64,000 nt of DNA from Cohnella sp. SGD-V74 (GTDB taxonomy: Bacteria; Bacillota; Bacilli; Paenibacillales; Paenibacillaceae). Shown in pieces: positions 5,892-47,786 of the stretch (the first letter of the stretch is position 1; the number at the start of each line of letters is the position of its first letter). The DNA is taken from the NCBI RefSeq assembly GCF_003001675.1, contig NZ_PVYW01000006.1, positions 62,001 through 126,000 on the forward strand, read 5' to 3'. The notes under the pieces are model-generated. The model saw nothing but the letters and a program-made list of their open reading frames with translations. It had not been told where the DNA came from and ran no database searches. A program made the position numbers and the translations under genes.

Positions 5892-6479
5892 TTACATCCC
5901 TGTCACGCGTATGTTGTCAAAAGTGTCTTTAAGCTTAAAAGAAACGCAAGGGAGCTTATCGGAGGAAATCCGGTCGCCCTCTTCATACAACTCCTTCAGA
6001 TCGTACCGCTCGCCGTCCAGCCAATATTGTTCCAACGTCCGCGCTTCTGGATCGACAAGCCAGTATTCCGGCACCTTGTGCTTGGCGTAAGCCGCCGCCT
6101 TCACGACCTTATCCCGCTTGCGCGTGCTTGGGGAAAGAATCTCGATGACCAGATCCGGCGCCCCCTCGACTCCATGCTTCTTGACGATGTCGAGTCGGCT
6201 ATGATGAATCATTATAATGTCCGGTTGGAGCACGGTAGTTCTGCTTAAAATGACATCAAACGGAGCGTAATAGATTTCATACTTCGAGCGACAGCTTTGC
6301 AAAACCAGAAATAGTTCCCTGCTCACCCCCTGATGAATCGCCATTGGCCCCGGAGACATCATTTCCAGCACACCGTCGATGATCTCATACCGGTTGCCGT
6401 CGTCCGGCATCGCCGCATAGTCGTCGTACGTCACCGGCCCCTCGCGAACAATCGGCTCTTCGTCCCGTTTCTTCTTCAT
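5892..6479 (-). CDS. Uma2-family (DUF820) nuclease-like protein, array A gene 3
   Basis: A 195-residue DUF820/Uma2 protein, a family with the PD-(D/E)xK nuclease fold and no settled function. Visible core: PDDGNRYEIIDGVLEMMSPG near the N-terminus, QPDIIMIH, GAPDLVIEILSPSTRKRDK with the candidate catalytic Asp, Glu and Lys, and EYWLVDPEARTLEQY. The ATG at 6479 is chosen because GGGGGAGCGAG is upstream and both neighbours also begin MKKK; an in-frame ATG at 6497 overlaps the previous stop codon as TAATG. It is the last gene of a three-gene tandem array. Confidence 0.8.
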   Translation of the reverse strand: MKKKRDEEPIVREGPVTYDDYAAMPDDGNRYEIIDGVLEMMSPGPMAIHQGVSRELFLVLQSCRSKYEIYYAPFDVILSRTTVLQPDIIMIHHSRLDIVKKHGVEGAPDLVIEILSPSTRKRDKVVKAAAYAKHKVPEYWLVDPEARTLEQYWLDGERYDLKELYEEGDRISSDKLPCVSFKLKDTFDNIRVTGM

Positions 6480-6496: not shown

Positions 6497-7093
6497 TTAA
6501 GTCGGCAACCGCAGCCGATCAGCTTCGTTAAAAATCTCTCCCAGCACAAAAGAAACGCAAGGCAGCTTGTCCGAAGAAACCCGATCGTCCTCTTCGTATG
6601 TCTGCGCCAATTCGTAATACTCGCCGGCCAGCCGATATTGCTCCAACGTCCGCGCCTCGGGATCGACTAGCCAGTATTCAGGTACCTGGTGTTTGGCGTA
6701 AACAGCCGCCTTCACGACCTTGTCCCGCTTGCGCGTGCTTGGGGAAAGAATTTCCACGACCAGATCGGGCGCACCTTCGATTCCGTGCGGCTTGACGATC
6801 TCCAATCGGCTGCGATGAATCATGATAATGTCCGGCTGAAGCACGGTAGTTCTGCTTAAGATGACATCAAGAGGGGCATCAAAAATGACATATTCCGAGC
6901 GACAGCTCTGCATAAGCAGAAATTCCAGTTCTCCGCTCACCGCCTGATGGATCGTCATCGGCCCAGGAGACATCATTTCCAGCACACCGTCGATGATCTC
7001 GTACCGATTGCCGTCGTCCGGCATCGCCGCATAGTCGTCGTACGTCACCGGCTGCTCGCGAACGATTGGCTCTTCTTCCCGCTTCTTCTTCAT
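6497..7093 (-). CDS. Uma2-family (DUF820) nuclease-like protein, array A gene 2
   Basis: A 198-residue paralogue of its neighbours, starting MKKKREEEP at the ATG at 7093, with AAGGAG about ten bases upstream. The nuclease-like core is intact (QPDIIMIH; GAPDLVVEILSPST; KRDK; EYWLVDP). The segment between the conserved HQ and SCRSEY (AVSGELEFLLMQ) differs from genes 1 and 3, while flanking residues are nearly identical. The gap to gene 1 is 24 bases, so the genes are one transcript. The family is called a putative restriction endonuclease in databases, but no cognate methylase is present here. Confidence 0.8.
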   Translation of the reverse strand: MKKKREEEPIVREQPVTYDDYAAMPDDGNRYEIIDGVLEMMSPGPMTIHQAVSGELEFLLMQSCRSEYVIFDAPLDVILSRTTVLQPDIIMIHRSRLEIVKPHGIEGAPDLVVEILSPSTRKRDKVVKAAVYAKHQVPEYWLVDPEARTLEQYRLAGEYYELAQTYEEDDRVSSDKLPCVSFVLGEIFNEADRLRLPT

Positions 7094-7117: not shown

Positions 7118-7711
7118 TTAAGTCGGCAACCCCAACCGATCAACTTCGTTAAAAATCTCTCCCAGCATAAAGGAGACGCACGGCAGCTTGTCCGAGGAAA
7201 CCCGGTCTTCTTCTTCGTATGTCTGCGCCAATTCGTAACGCTCGCCGTCCAGCCGATATTGCTCCAACGTCCGCGCTTCGGGATCGACAAGCCAGTATTC
7301 CGGCACTCGATGCTTGGCGTAAGCCGCCGCCTTCACGACTTTGTCCCGTTTGCGCGTGCTTGGGGAAAGAATCTCCACGACCAGATCGGGCGCACCTTCG
7401 ACTCCGTGCGGCTTCACAATCTCGATCCGGCTGCGGTGAATCATTAAGATGTCCGGCTGAAGCACGGTAGTTCTGCTTAGGATGACATCAAAAGGAGCCA
7501 AAAACATGACATACTCCGAGCGGCAGCTCTGTAAAAACAGAAATAGCTCTCCGCTCACCCCCTGATGAACCGTCATCGGCCCCGGAGACATCATTTCCAG
7601 CACACCGTCGATGATCTCGTACCGATTGCCGTCGTCCGGCATCGACGCATAGTCGTCGTACGTAACCGGCCCCTCGCGAACAATCGGCTCGTCTTCCCGC
7701 TTCTTCTTCAT
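7118..7711 (-). CDS. Uma2-family (DUF820) nuclease-like protein, array A gene 1
   Basis: A 197-residue first gene of array A, starting MKKKREDEP at the ATG at 7711 behind GGAGGAAGCGGG. The reading frame stays open for 41 codons upstream, but those codons cross the leader hairpin and promoter and are not conserved in array B. Core residues are intact (QPDILMIH; GAPDLVVEILSPST; EYWLVDP). It is read from a strong promoter at 7806-7834 through a terminator-like leader, the same arrangement as array B at 45.1-47.8 kb. Confidence 0.8.
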   Translation of the reverse strand: MKKKREDEPIVREGPVTYDDYASMPDDGNRYEIIDGVLEMMSPGPMTVHQGVSGELFLFLQSCRSEYVMFLAPFDVILSRTTVLQPDILMIHRSRIEIVKPHGVEGAPDLVVEILSPSTRKRDKVVKAAAYAKHRVPEYWLVDPEARTLEQYRLDGERYELAQTYEEEDRVSSDKLPCVSFMLGEIFNEVDRLGLPT

Positions 7712-7733: not shown

Positions 7734-7785
7734 CAAAAGCACCTAACAAAGCCACACGTATTGTGTTGGACTTTGTGAGGTGCTT
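7734..7785 (-). ncRNA. Conserved leader hairpin of Uma2 array A (attenuator-like or small RNA)
   Basis: On the minus strand AAGCACCT...AGGTGCTT, ACAAAG...CTTTGT and ACAC...GTGT nest into one long stem (7785-7737), followed by a short T run. It starts about 14 bases after the expected transcription start and ends about 23 bases before the first gene. Array B has the same structure at 45196-45249. It resembles an intrinsic terminator, so most transcripts may stop here. Whether it is an attenuator, a small RNA or only a protective 5' structure is not known. Confidence 0.65.
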
Positions 7786-7805
7786 CCTCGACTACTGTTC
7801 CTTTT

Positions 7806-7834
7806 ATTATGTTAAAAATGCAGGAATCTGTCAA
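7806..7834 (-). promoter_or_regulatory. Strong sigma-A promoter of Uma2 array A
   Basis: On the minus strand, TTGACA (7834-7829), a 17-base spacer, then CATAAT (7811-7806). The -35 is perfect and the -10 one base off consensus. The same boxes and spacing occur before array B. Confidence 0.8.
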
Positions 7835-7884: not shown

Positions 7885-8034
7885 GCGAGGCACCTTTTTG
7901 GCCTTCACACGCGGCCCTCAGGCCTCCAGCTCGCGGCCCTCAATCCGCCGAGGCACTTTTTTGGCCTCGGCACGCGACCGTCAGTTCCGCCGAGGCACTT
8001 TTTTGGCCTCCGCATGCGGCCCTCAGACCTCCAG
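7885..8034. repeat. Three degenerate direct repeats downstream of the 748-residue FAD oxidoreductase gene
   Basis: Three copies of a unit close to CCGAGGCACTTTTTTGGCC have GAGGCAC starting at 7887, 7950 and 7992. The spacings of 63 and 42 bases are both multiples of 21. Each unit is followed by a partly conserved CGCGGCCCTCAG tail. An inverted copy of the core (GTGCCTCG, 7854-7861) precedes them. They lie between the Uma2 array A promoter and the stop codon at 8048. No function is evident. Confidence 0.6.
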
Positions 8035-45147: not shown

Positions 45148-45176
45148 TTGACAACCCCTGATGAATTCGGCATAAT
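45148..45176 (+). promoter_or_regulatory. Strong sigma-A promoter of Uma2 array B
   Basis: TTGACA (45148-45153), 17-base spacer, CATAAT (45171-45176), followed by AAAGGAA. Boxes, spacer length and the first transcribed bases agree with the array A promoter on the other strand 37 kb away. Confidence 0.8.
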
Positions 45177-45195
45177 AAAGGAAATCAAGTCGAGG

Positions 45196-45249
45196 AAGCA
45201 CCTCTCAAAGTCGGACACGTTCACGTGTTTCTTTGCGGGGTGCTTTTTG
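45196..45249 (+). ncRNA. Conserved leader hairpin of Uma2 array B (attenuator-like or small RNA)
   Basis: AAGCACC (45196) pairs with GGTGCTT (to 45245), CAAAG (45206) with CTTTG (45231), and ACACG (45215) with CGTGT (45224). A five-base T run follows. Outer stems and the preceding GTCGAGG are the same as in array A, while loop bases differ. It ends 24 bases before the first gene, nearly the same distance as in array A. Paired changes in the arms would show that the RNA structure is selected. Confidence 0.65.
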
Positions 45250-45272: not shown

Positions 45273-45869
45273 ATGAAAAAGAAGACGTATGAGGAATTGG
45301 TGAAGGAATCGCCCGTTACCTACGAGATGTACGCGAATATGGAGGATGACGGCAATCGCTACGAGATTTCGGACGGGGTTCTGGAACTGATGAGTCCTTC
45401 TCCGGCATTTATTCATCAGTTGTTGCTCGGAGAAATCTTATTCAGGCTGAATGCAAGCTGCCGAAATGAGTTTATTATTGCAGTTGCCCCGGTAGACGTG
45501 ATCCTCTCTGATACCGAGCTTCGACAGCCCGATCTCGTCATGGTTCACATAAGCCGAACGCATATCATCAGCAACCGTGGCATTAACGGCGCTCCCGACC
45601 TCGTCGCCGAGATTACGTCCAAACATTCTCTCAAGCGAGACAAGCTGACAAAGCGCAACGTCTACGCCAAGTATGGCGTGCGCGAGTATTGGATTATCGA
45701 TCCGTCCAACTTTACCTTGGAGCAGTATGAATTACAAGACGACGATTATGAGCTGATCGATGTCTATTCCGGTGAGGAACCGATTCGCTCTCGCACTGCC
45801 CCTTGCGTTTCTTTCAGCATGGACGAGCTTATTCGCAGTCTTCCCATTCCGCCAGAACAGTTGAACTAG
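45273..45869 (+). CDS. Uma2-family (DUF820) nuclease-like protein, array B gene 1 (type a)
   Basis: A 198-residue Uma2 protein starting MKKKTYEELVKESP, with GGAGGCGGGG upstream. The core has RQPDLVMVH, NGAPDLVAEITSKHSLKRDK with candidate Asp, Glu and Lys, and EYWIIDPSNFTLEQYEL. Gene 3 is its close copy, exactly 1284 bases downstream, and differs mainly between FIHQ and NEFII. It is the first gene of a four-gene operon and is read through the leader hairpin. Confidence 0.8.
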   Translation: MKKKTYEELVKESPVTYEMYANMEDDGNRYEISDGVLELMSPSPAFIHQLLLGEILFRLNASCRNEFIIAVAPVDVILSDTELRQPDLVMVHISRTHIISNRGINGAPDLVAEITSKHSLKRDKLTKRNVYAKYGVREYWIIDPSNFTLEQYELQDDDYELIDVYSGEEPIRSRTAPCVSFSMDELIRSLPIPPEQLN

Positions 45870-45917: not shown

Positions 45918-46502
45918 GTGGAGAAAGACAAAAGAGCCGCCGACAAAGTGAAAGAACAGCCGGTAACCTACGAGATTTATGCGGAAATGCCCGATGACGG
46001 CAATCGTTACGAGGTGATCGACGGGGTGCTGGAACTGATGTCTCCTAGTCCTACGGCTTCTCATCAATCTATTGCAGTGGATCTTTGCTTTGAACTGAAA
46101 CAAAGCTGCAGATCGGATTACTTGATCTACGTCGCGCCGCTGGATGTTATCTTGAGCGACACGAATGTCGTGCAGCCCGACGCGATTATGATCCATCGCA
46201 ACCGAAAGCATATTGTCACTTCCAGAGGAATAGAAGGTCCGCCGGATCTGGCCGTAGAGGTTCTCTCCCCAAGCTCGCGGAAACGGGACAGGTTGAAAAA
46301 GAGGGCGGTGTACGAGAAACACGGCGTCCCGGAATATTGGATCGTCGACCCCGAGGCGCGGACATTGGAGCAGTTTCACTTGGACGAGAACGGGAAATAT
46401 GAGCTGATCCAGCTATACGAAAATGACGAGCAGGTCGTGTCAAGCAAACTCCCCTGCGTCTCCTTTGCGGTCAGCCAGCTATTCGGGGATGTGCTGCAAT
46501 AG
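45918..46502 (+). CDS. Uma2-family (DUF820) nuclease-like protein, array B gene 2 (type b)
   Basis: A 194-residue Uma2 protein. The GTG at 45918 is chosen because the matching codon in its twin (gene 4) is the ATG at 47202 and AGAAAGGA precedes both; an ATG at 45882 and one at 45909 are in frame but not conserved. Core: QPDAIMIHRNR, GPPDLAVEVLSPSSRKRDR, EYWIVDPEARTLEQFHL. It is more like the array A proteins than its type a neighbours are. Confidence 0.78.
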   Translation: MEKDKRAADKVKEQPVTYEIYAEMPDDGNRYEVIDGVLELMSPSPTASHQSIAVDLCFELKQSCRSDYLIYVAPLDVILSDTNVVQPDAIMIHRNRKHIVTSRGIEGPPDLAVEVLSPSSRKRDRLKKRAVYEKHGVPEYWIVDPEARTLEQFHLDENGKYELIQLYENDEQVVSSKLPCVSFAVSQLFGDVLQ

Positions 46503-46556: not shown

Positions 46557-47153
46557 ATGAAGAAGAAAACGTACGAGGAATTGGTGAAGGAGTCGCCCGT
46601 GACCTACGAGATGTACGCGAATATGGTAGACGACGGCAACCGTTACGAGATTTCGGACGGGGTGCTGGAATTGATGAGTCCTTCTCCTCTATTTATTCAT
46701 CAATTCATCTGCCATAAGATGCAAGTCATACTTGACGGTAGCTGCCAAAACGAGTTTATCATTCTGGCCGCTCCGCTCGACGTAATTCTATCGGACACCG
46801 AGGTTCGGCAGCCCGATCTCGTCATGATCCATCTGAGCCGCACACACATTATCAGCAAAAGAGGTATTAACGGCGCTCCCGACCTCGTCGTCGAGATTAC
46901 GTCCAAGCACTCTCTTAAGCGGGACAAGCTGACGAAGCGCAACGTATACGCCAAGTACGGGGTGCGCGAGTATTGGATCGTCGACCCATCCAACTTTACT
47001 TTGGAGCAGTATGAATTACGCGAAGACCATTATGAGCTGATCGATGTCTATTCCGGTGAGGAACCGATTCATTCCCGTACTGCTCCCTGCATTTCTTTTA
47101 GCATGGACGAGCTCGTACGCAGCCTCCCCGTTCCGCCGGATCAGTTGACATAG
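46557..47153 (+). CDS. Uma2-family (DUF820) nuclease-like protein, array B gene 3 (type a)
   Basis: A 198-residue duplicate of gene 1, starting MKKKTYEELVKESP. Most of the chain is identical to gene 1, but the segment after FIHQ reads FICHKMQVILDGS against LLLGEILFRLNAS in gene 1. The candidate catalytic residues are kept (NGAPDLVVEITSKHSLKRDK). Spacing to gene 2 is 54 bases. Confidence 0.8.
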   Translation: MKKKTYEELVKESPVTYEMYANMVDDGNRYEISDGVLELMSPSPLFIHQFICHKMQVILDGSCQNEFIILAAPLDVILSDTEVRQPDLVMIHLSRTHIISKRGINGAPDLVVEITSKHSLKRDKLTKRNVYAKYGVREYWIVDPSNFTLEQYELREDHYELIDVYSGEEPIHSRTAPCISFSMDELVRSLPVPPDQLT

Positions 47154-47201: not shown

Positions 47202-47786
47202 ATGGAGAAAAGCAAAAAAGCCGCGGACAAAGTGAAGGAGCAGCCAGCAACTTACGAGACTTATGCGGCATTGCCCGACGACGGGAACCGTTACGAGGTC
47301 ATCGACGGGGTGCTGGAGCTGATGTCTCCTAGTCCTACGACCTCTCATCAATCCATATTAGTGGAATTGATCGATGTGCTGCGTCAAAGCTGCAAATCGG
47401 ATTACCTGATCTACTTCGCTCCCCTAGACGTCATCCTGAGCGATACGAACGTCGTGCAGCCCGACGCGATCATGATCCATCGCAGCCGAAAGCACATTGT
47501 CACTTCCCGGGGAGTAGAAGGCCCGCCGGATCTGGCCGTGGAGGTCCTCTCCCCAAGCTCGCGAAAACGGGACAGGTTGAAAAAGAGGGCGGTGTACGAG
47601 AAACACGGCGTCCCGGAATATTGGATCGTCGACCCCGAGGCGCGGACATTGGAGCAGTTTCACTTGGACGAAAGTGGGAAATATGAGCTGATCCAGCTAT
47701 ACGAAAATGACGAGCAGGTCGTGTCAAGCAAGCTTTCTTGCGTCTCTTTCGCGGTCAGCGGCCTTTTTGCGGACGTGCTGCAGTAA
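47202..47786 (+). CDS. Uma2-family (DUF820) nuclease-like protein, array B gene 4 (type b)
   Basis: A 194-residue duplicate of gene 2, with the same length and an ATG at 47202. From PPDLAVEVL to the end it is almost identical to gene 2, while the stretch after SHQS differs (ILVELIDVLRQSCK against IAVDLCFELKQSCR). It is the last gene of the array and is convergent with cardiolipin synthase. Confidence 0.8.
   Translation: MEKSKKAADKVKEQPATYETYAALPDDGNRYEVIDGVLELMSPSPTTSHQSILVELIDVLRQSCKSDYLIYFAPLDVILSDTNVVQPDAIMIHRSRKHIVTSRGVEGPPDLAVEVLSPSSRKRDRLKKRAVYEKHGVPEYWIVDPEARTLEQFHLDESGKYELIQLYENDEQVVSSKLSCVSFAVSGLFADVLQ

Follow-up and report, generated by a model that had tools for sequence, protein, structure and literature searches.

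What does one promoter and leader do in front of two separate arrays of Uma2 genes? The question is raised by a stretch of 64,000 nucleotides from the genome of Cohnella sp. SGD-V74 (the window), in which array A, on the minus strand, holds three Uma2 genes and array B, on the plus strand, holds four, both opened by the same promoter and hairpin. Uma2 proteins form a large family of nucleases whose role is not settled, and an RNA leader standing before dozens of their genes in several genera offers a handle on their control and possibly on what keeps a Uma2 nuclease safe.

An earlier note on this DNA had claimed that both arrays begin with TTGACA-17-CATAAT and a hairpin with a T run, and the coordinates could be confirmed in the window. 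In array A, the -35 element (TTGACA, 7829..7834, minus strand) matches the consensus exactly and is separated by a 17-nt spacer from the -10 element (CATAAT, 7806..7811, minus strand). The leader hairpin (7735..7792, minus strand) consists of outer, middle and apical helices and a T run, with GTCGAGGAAGCACCT forming the 5' start of the leader (7792-7778), the hairpin proper extending over about 7785-7737 and the T run lying at 7738-7735 (tract TTTTG). It is followed on the same strand by gene A1 (7118..7711; PF05685 domain at C6:69184-69657, start placed by eye at ATGAAGAAG behind the ribosome site), gene A2 (6497..7093; PF05685) and gene A3 (5892..6479; PF05685). Array B presents, on the plus strand, an exact consensus TTGACA (45148..45153), a 17-nt spacer, CATAAT (45171..45176) and a leader hairpin (45189..45248; hairpin about 45196-45245, T run 45244-45248), then the PF05685 genes B1 (45273..45869, start by eye), B2 (45918..46502, GTG start by eye), B3 (46557..47153) and B4 (47202..47786). 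Both promoters agree with the consensus at 11 of 12 positions; the hairpins begin 18-19 nt after the -10 element and are followed by a T run of four (A) or five (B) and by the ribosome site, and all seven genes match PF05685 at 90-125 bits against a cut-off of 27. With the covariance model R2, introduced below, the leaders score 79.8 (A) and 79.3 bits (B), both copies being among the six used to build it. Directly upstream of promoter A, at 7921-8026 of the window, a 42-bp unit is repeated in tandem, about 2.5 copies in all. The five neighbouring proteins that were scanned do not resemble a defence island; they comprised a glycosidase-like protein (below cut-off), a FAD oxidoreductase, an acetyltransferase, a phospholipase-D-type protein and an aldolase.

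The two window leaders fold with z-scores of -2.9 and -4.0, with 1 and 0 of 200 shuffles, respectively, doing as well. They had been described as two copies of one attenuator-like or small-RNA module, and the same promoter and hairpin do head both arrays. A strict terminator scan (continuous stem, at least five T) called neither leader; a looser custom scan called both. Over 464 kb (the window plus 400 kb of contig 1) the custom scan found 463 terminator-like hairpins, and only the two window leaders have a promoter with at most two mismatches directly upstream.

Two ordinary leaders might resemble each other by chance, a reading consistent with the behaviour of loose versions of the motif. 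With up to two mismatches, GTCGAGGAAGCACCT gave 19 matches genome-wide compared with 61 for a reversed control pattern, and with up to three mismatches it gave 4 in the window compared with 2.3 expected; since the loose motif is no commoner than the control, only near-exact copies and structure carry weight. The exact 15-mer occurs four times in the 8.24-Mb genome, each time upstream of Uma2, and this, together with the 57 of 76 model matches before Uma2 reported below, refutes chance likeness, to which we give practically no credence. Inspection by eye added two altered copies, at C6:147.5k and C25:26.3k, and with the final model the host genome contains six leaders at E <= 1e-6, all six before Uma2. 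By position, 15 of its 22 Uma2 matches belong to units headed by a leader, and the remaining 7 (C30, C24, C6:318k, C25:50k, C22 and two at C20) stand outside such units. One open frame of 585 aa in this genome (G000:C6:145142-146740) contains three Uma2 domains.

The covariance model R2, built from the six host-genome copies, was run on 37 Cohnella genomes, 22 of which contain Uma2, and a match was taken as linked when the same strand carried a Uma2 domain or fragment no more than 600 nt downstream. Linked matches made up 57 of 76 at E <= 1e-5 and 54 of 70 at E <= 1e-6, and the wider tally at E <= 1e-3 (59 of 90) is biased in that above about 2.8e-4 just two known Uma2 cases entered and, for E > 1e-5, opposite-strand palindrome echoes were left out; it bears none of our conclusions. 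Among the 54 linked leaders, one (G020:C4:180869) has as its first follower an XRE-type HTH gene (L132:201-629, plus strand, PF01381), behind which come a second leader and Uma2. The 16 unlinked matches at E <= 1e-6 divide into 5 before Uma2 remnants, 2 before coiled-coil genes and 9 before other genes or no clear gene. The five ahead of remnants, recognised by eye, are L073, L075, L082, L083 and L100, to which L227 is added from outside Cohnella; coiled-coil repeat protein genes follow L076 and L088, in two Cohnella genomes, and other genes, named by eye, include topB (L077) and htpG (L081, L099). Leader-like hairpins before htpG occur in genomes G009 and G031, and in L081 a repeat that we take to be CIRCE-like lies between hairpin and htpG. 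At L096 (G020:C34:48151-50216), a leader without Uma2 adjoins a phospholipase-D-type gene that by eye resembles the gene following array B; this is perhaps a lost Uma2 array.

A second model, R3, made from 58 sequences, was run over 394 genomes of the family and found a match at E <= 1e-6 in 32, of which 26 were Cohnella. In two genomes of one further genus of the family (G367 and G369) all four matches precede a Uma2 gene or fragment, and single matches in G108, G136, G312 and G384, as well as two in Cohnella G022, do not lie before Uma2. An order-wide draw of 392 genomes yielded a match in 21, and in two other families, f6 and f7, 8 of 11 matches were found before Uma2, one before a remnant (L227) and two before neither; f6 carried the leader in 7 of 104 genomes, a count to be read with the fact that these large searches scored few candidates per genome, so that a missing match does not prove absence. 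The expectation that further copies would precede Uma2 genes elsewhere was therefore borne out, many being found in Cohnella, in another genus and in two other families. We conclude that a conserved candidate RNA leader is real, strongly tied to Uma2 in Cohnella and sporadic in other Paenibacillales, and the patchy distribution would fit a moving, decaying cassette. A single exact pattern scan of viral contigs, a weak probe for phage spread, gave no match.

Across the genus, other hairpins, beginning near GAGGAAGCACCTC and finishing in a long run of T, precede genes, named by eye, for an HRDC protein (L034, L091, L105-L111, L113), a comM-like protein (L036, L092) and a comEC-like protein (L025, L112). 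A shared regulon with these genes was considered and set aside because their hairpins score far lower and have no upper hairpin of the CAAAG/ACAC type. They may represent a separate set of terminator leaders, some of them before DNA-uptake genes.

The anatomy of the leader was surveyed in 59 copies, namely the Uma2-linked model matches including the hand-picked L165 and L065, the rows of A4 being without those two. An exact TTGACA is present in 58 of the 59, CATAAT in 51 and a spacer of 17 or 18 nt in 58, the exception (L137) belonging to a Uma2 fragment below cut-off. The hairpin starts 16-24 nt after the -10 element in 57 of 59 leaders and 11-19 nt from the predicted transcription start in the 57 leaders that were folded. 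It has three tiers, an outer helix AAGCACCYC/GRGGTGCTT, a middle helix CAAAG/CTTTG and, beyond a 4x2 interior loop, an apical helix ACAC/GTGT, and it is single, no tandem RNA repeats being visible among the 59. The 9-nt stretch at the stem end contains 4-8 T in all 59 (some rows include the last two stem bases) and the T content 10-40 nt beyond the stem end is 12.6%; in many copies the T tract is short or interrupted. The ribosome site of the first Uma2 gene usually lies about 10 nt or less behind it.

The stems are also conserved as stems. In an alignment of 58 leaders, 55 of them distinct, standard pairs account for 97.8% of cells and four pairs have changed on both sides, so that the stem covariation anticipated for a genuine RNA structure is present in the form of pair-preserving changes. 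The covariation score of 0.144 compares with 0.118 +/- 0.004 in shuffled alignments, none of 500 shuffles scoring as high, and exceeds all slid controls, a result to be weighed against the facts that the structure guided the alignment and that kinship among sequences can by itself beat shuffles. Further pair types in the same 58 leaders were as frequent as in shuffles (13 versus 12.5, with 231 of 500 as high). From the same alignment RNAalifold predicted 16 pairs, 15 of which are shared with our structure.

A dyad this close behind a strong promoter, 16-24 nt from the -10 element in 57 of 59 copies, could in principle be a DNA operator, that is, a repressor site just past the start in which the hairpin is incidental, and the XRE-type gene behind one leader could be taken as a hint of such a repressor. 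The pattern of substitutions argues otherwise: G-U cells outnumber mismatches (55 versus 19, 13 of the 19 falling at the outermost pair), and the spacing between the half-sites is unequal, the interior loop measuring 4 nt on one side and 2 nt on the other in 48 of the 50 rows compared, after removal of five whose apex differs or is misaligned. A repressor site would also leave unexplained why all 59 copies have a T-rich stretch on their 3' side. Because of the G-U pairs and the unequal spacing in particular, we regard an operator as very unlikely.

If the hairpin acts as RNA, is its sequence constrained beyond pairing? Where the Uma2 proteins behind two leaders are less than 40% identical (389 leader pairs), the middle and apical helices remain 92% and 93% identical and the outer stem 84%, compared with 30% for the interior loop, 36% for the promoter spacer (better of two registers), which is near chance, and 35% for the 14 nt after the hairpin. 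The earlier statement that outer stems are kept and loops differ thus holds for the outer stem, but the middle and apical helices are conserved too and the variation lies in the interior and terminal loops. That the helices stayed 92-93% identical while the spacers drifted indicates that they are held by more than pairing, although the size of this effect is inflated, since a model search selects for likeness, and the measured conservation is in part an artefact of retrieval because the first model was built from host-genome copies.

This difference also bears on the alternative that the leader is constitutive, either a weak terminator or a 5' stabilising hairpin without any binder, doing no more than holding expression low or protecting the mRNA, whose sequence persists by descent and cassette spread. 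Such a leader would suit a hairpin near the predicted 5' end with neither an anti-terminator nor an aptamer-like loop in sight, and similar promoter-proximal hairpins stand, by eye, on the HRDC-protein, comM and comEC genes of the genus. What it accounts for less well is that promoter spacers and post-hairpin DNA have drifted near to chance when the helices have not, that the 4x2 interior loop has been kept and that the apical sequence is fixed, which a plain terminator would not need. We consider a constitutive leader unlikely, but likely enough to be taken seriously.

The folding of the leader limits the kinds of control that can be envisaged. In an ensemble calculation the 5' arm was in the hairpin at a probability of at least 0.9 in 43 of 57 leaders, and no competing anti-terminator fold was clearly seen in any of the 57, the 11-19 nt upstream of the hairpin leaving little room for one. 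No pseudoknot was seen in the leader. Masking of the ribosome site found no support as a mode of control, as the sites are mostly open (45 of 55 over 0.5). A premature terminator with low read-through is the most economical account. Among Uma2 paralogues less than 60% identical, leaders were slightly more alike within than between genomes (difference 0.044, reached in 3 of 2000 shuffles; computed on 54 of the 57 leaders, as the other three have no protein), a likeness that recent duplication within species could explain equally well as a shared trans factor.

The reading to which we incline, with somewhat more confidence than doubt, is that of a 5' leader with a premature terminator and low read-through, whose upper hairpin would be read by a protein, likeliest Uma2 itself. 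The near-consensus sigma-A-type promoter would start an RNA with the three-tier hairpin as its first structure; many polymerases would stop at the T-rich tract, giving a free hairpin RNA some 60-75 nt long, and the remaining ones would read through into the Uma2 gene or array, resulting in low expression. A sequence-specific RNA-binding protein reading the hairpin would then alter the read-through. The sequence itself shows the anatomy of the leader, its conservation and pairing and its association with Uma2; termination, low read-through, protein binding and the identity of the binder are what we infer from it, the involvement of such a protein because the upper hairpin is kept in sequence, not just in pairing, and no anti-terminator partner is visible. 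Uma2 is the likeliest reader, which would amount to feedback control, because it is the most frequent follower of the leader in every family found and because several leaders stand before Uma2 remnants; strong leaders before unrelated genes weaken the idea of Uma2 as a necessary binder. We accordingly hold the terminator-leader part of this account with moderate confidence and the assignment of Uma2 as the binder with low confidence.

What is known of the Uma2 proteins themselves leads to a further alternative. The residues D88, D110, E114, D124 and K128 (gene A2 numbering) are kept in 65 or 66 of 66 leader-linked rows, the other row having a gap or X, and we take these acidic and lysine positions to form a PD-(D/E)XK-type core. 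Gene A2 has solved relatives in 9y1l (E 1.6e-38), 6okh, 3ot2 and 1wdj, which are Uma2-type by sequence, and a Pfam scan of two window genes returned Uma2 only, with no ToxN/CptN/TenpN-type endoribonuclease. In a tree of 113 Uma2 domains the leader labels cluster (15 changes versus 35.8 when shuffled); these labels were assigned by a text pattern, which overlooked at least L052, L177, L178 and L185, all four of which do have model matches, and genes lying inside an array were labelled 'none'. For these reasons the number of gains and losses was not used. Two leader-less host Uma2 proteins carry an in-frame N-terminal Phd/YefM antitoxin domain (L010:547-1284, minus strand, and L012:627-1352, plus strand; PF02604 at 29.3 bits, just under the cut-off of 29.8, and at 37.4 bits, above it), a fusion that hints at a toxin role for Uma2. 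In PADLOC, Uma2-like profiles are entered as the candidate PDC-S03, a name absent from the open-licence PubMed Central literature. Published passages describe Uma2 either as a PD-(D/E)XK nuclease or as of unknown function, and those of PMC2701414 regard it as probably a solo toxin that seldom has an antitoxin and occurs mostly in cassettes of paralogues.

Could the short hairpin RNA, then, be the antitoxin? Present in excess, it would bind and inactivate a harmful Uma2 nuclease, with the terminator setting the ratio of RNA to mRNA as in type III toxin-antitoxin systems and AbiF/RCd22. The order of the parts is the same as in the passages on AbiF/RCd22 (PMC12373285) and type III loci (PMC5086642), and the solo-toxin label in paralogue cassettes (PMC2701414), the Phd/YefM domain fused to two leader-less Uma2 proteins (L010, L012), the sequence conservation of the upper hairpin across paralogues and the retention of the family's acidic and lysine residues in leader-linked Uma2 all agree with it. 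Set against these points, there is no sign of Uma2 toxicity, neither RNA repeats nor a pseudoknot were seen, a single leader serves three to four different Uma2 proteins per array, and unrelated genes also lie behind leaders. We find an inactivating RNA of this kind fairly improbable. We give slightly less credit still to the more specific proposal that the leader is the missing partner of 'solo' Uma2, a prematurely terminated single-hairpin RNA that would hold the nuclease inactive, its terminator doubling as antitoxin. If this were true, leader-less Uma2 proteins would have to be kept safe otherwise, for example by the fused Phd/YefM domain in two of them, and the cassette spread through Paenibacillales would amount to a nuclease system under RNA control, different in kind from type III toxin-antitoxin.

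The leader defines a candidate RNA family without a match in Rfam 15: nothing in the window exceeded the thresholds, leader A had no match at E <= 10, and leader B had three far below the gathering scores, the best at E 0.34. In open-licence PubMed Central we found no paper combining 'Uma2' and 'RNA leader', and for Uma2, DUF820 or COG4636 together with RNA terms only PMC9067536 and PMC2701414, among the matches listed, paired a Uma2 name with an RNA term. The earlier note knew of no described RNA leader for Uma2, a statement that needs qualifying, as a different candidate RNA that precedes Uma2 genes by about 400 bases has been published (PMC9067536); beyond that RNA, the passages on Uma2 consulted here contain no mention of a shared RNA leader. 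As described there, the RNA in question, CRISPRCas_45, is likewise predicted to be structured and precedes genes of the Uma2 family, but it lies about 400 bases upstream, at type V-A CRISPR loci in Eubacterium, and we set it apart from our leader by description only. The genes that follow the leader are clear members of Uma2/DUF820/COG4636 (PF05685; PADLOC PDC-S03).

Classical attenuators have an alternative anti-terminator fold. The trait that the Uma2 leaders display is a terminator-like hairpin between the promoter and the first ribosome site, and such a hairpin between promoter and gene is likewise found in the premature-terminator leaders and attenuators of PMC2965389. LoaP-controlled leaders, in the passages of PMC12691694, similarly combine a conserved leader hairpin with an intrinsic terminator in Bacillota, but their UNCG hairpin is separate from the terminator. 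LoaP itself was rejected as an antitermination factor here, as none of the 37 Cohnella genomes has a protein above the NF033641 cut-off, the sub-threshold matches present in 36 of 37 being of the NusG type. The type III toxin-antitoxin systems ToxIN, CptIN and TenpIN share the order of one promoter, an RNA, a terminator and a nuclease-type gene and differ, according to the passages of PMC5086642, in their repeated RNA units with pseudoknots and their ToxN-type endoribonucleases, none of which was seen at the Uma2 leaders. AbiF/RCd22 of Clostridioides difficile, in turn, has an AbiF protein and, besides the terminator, two separate abiF RNA motifs in the account given in passages of PMC12373285, whereas at the Uma2 leaders no conserved RNA was seen besides the terminator-like hairpin, and the gene encodes a Uma2 nuclease, with no AbiF (Abi_2) by Pfam. 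What the two have in common, going by the same passages (PMC12373285), is a sigma-A promoter, a short RNA, a Rho-independent terminator and a toxin-like gene reached by read-through, no promoter being predicted between that RNA and the gene.
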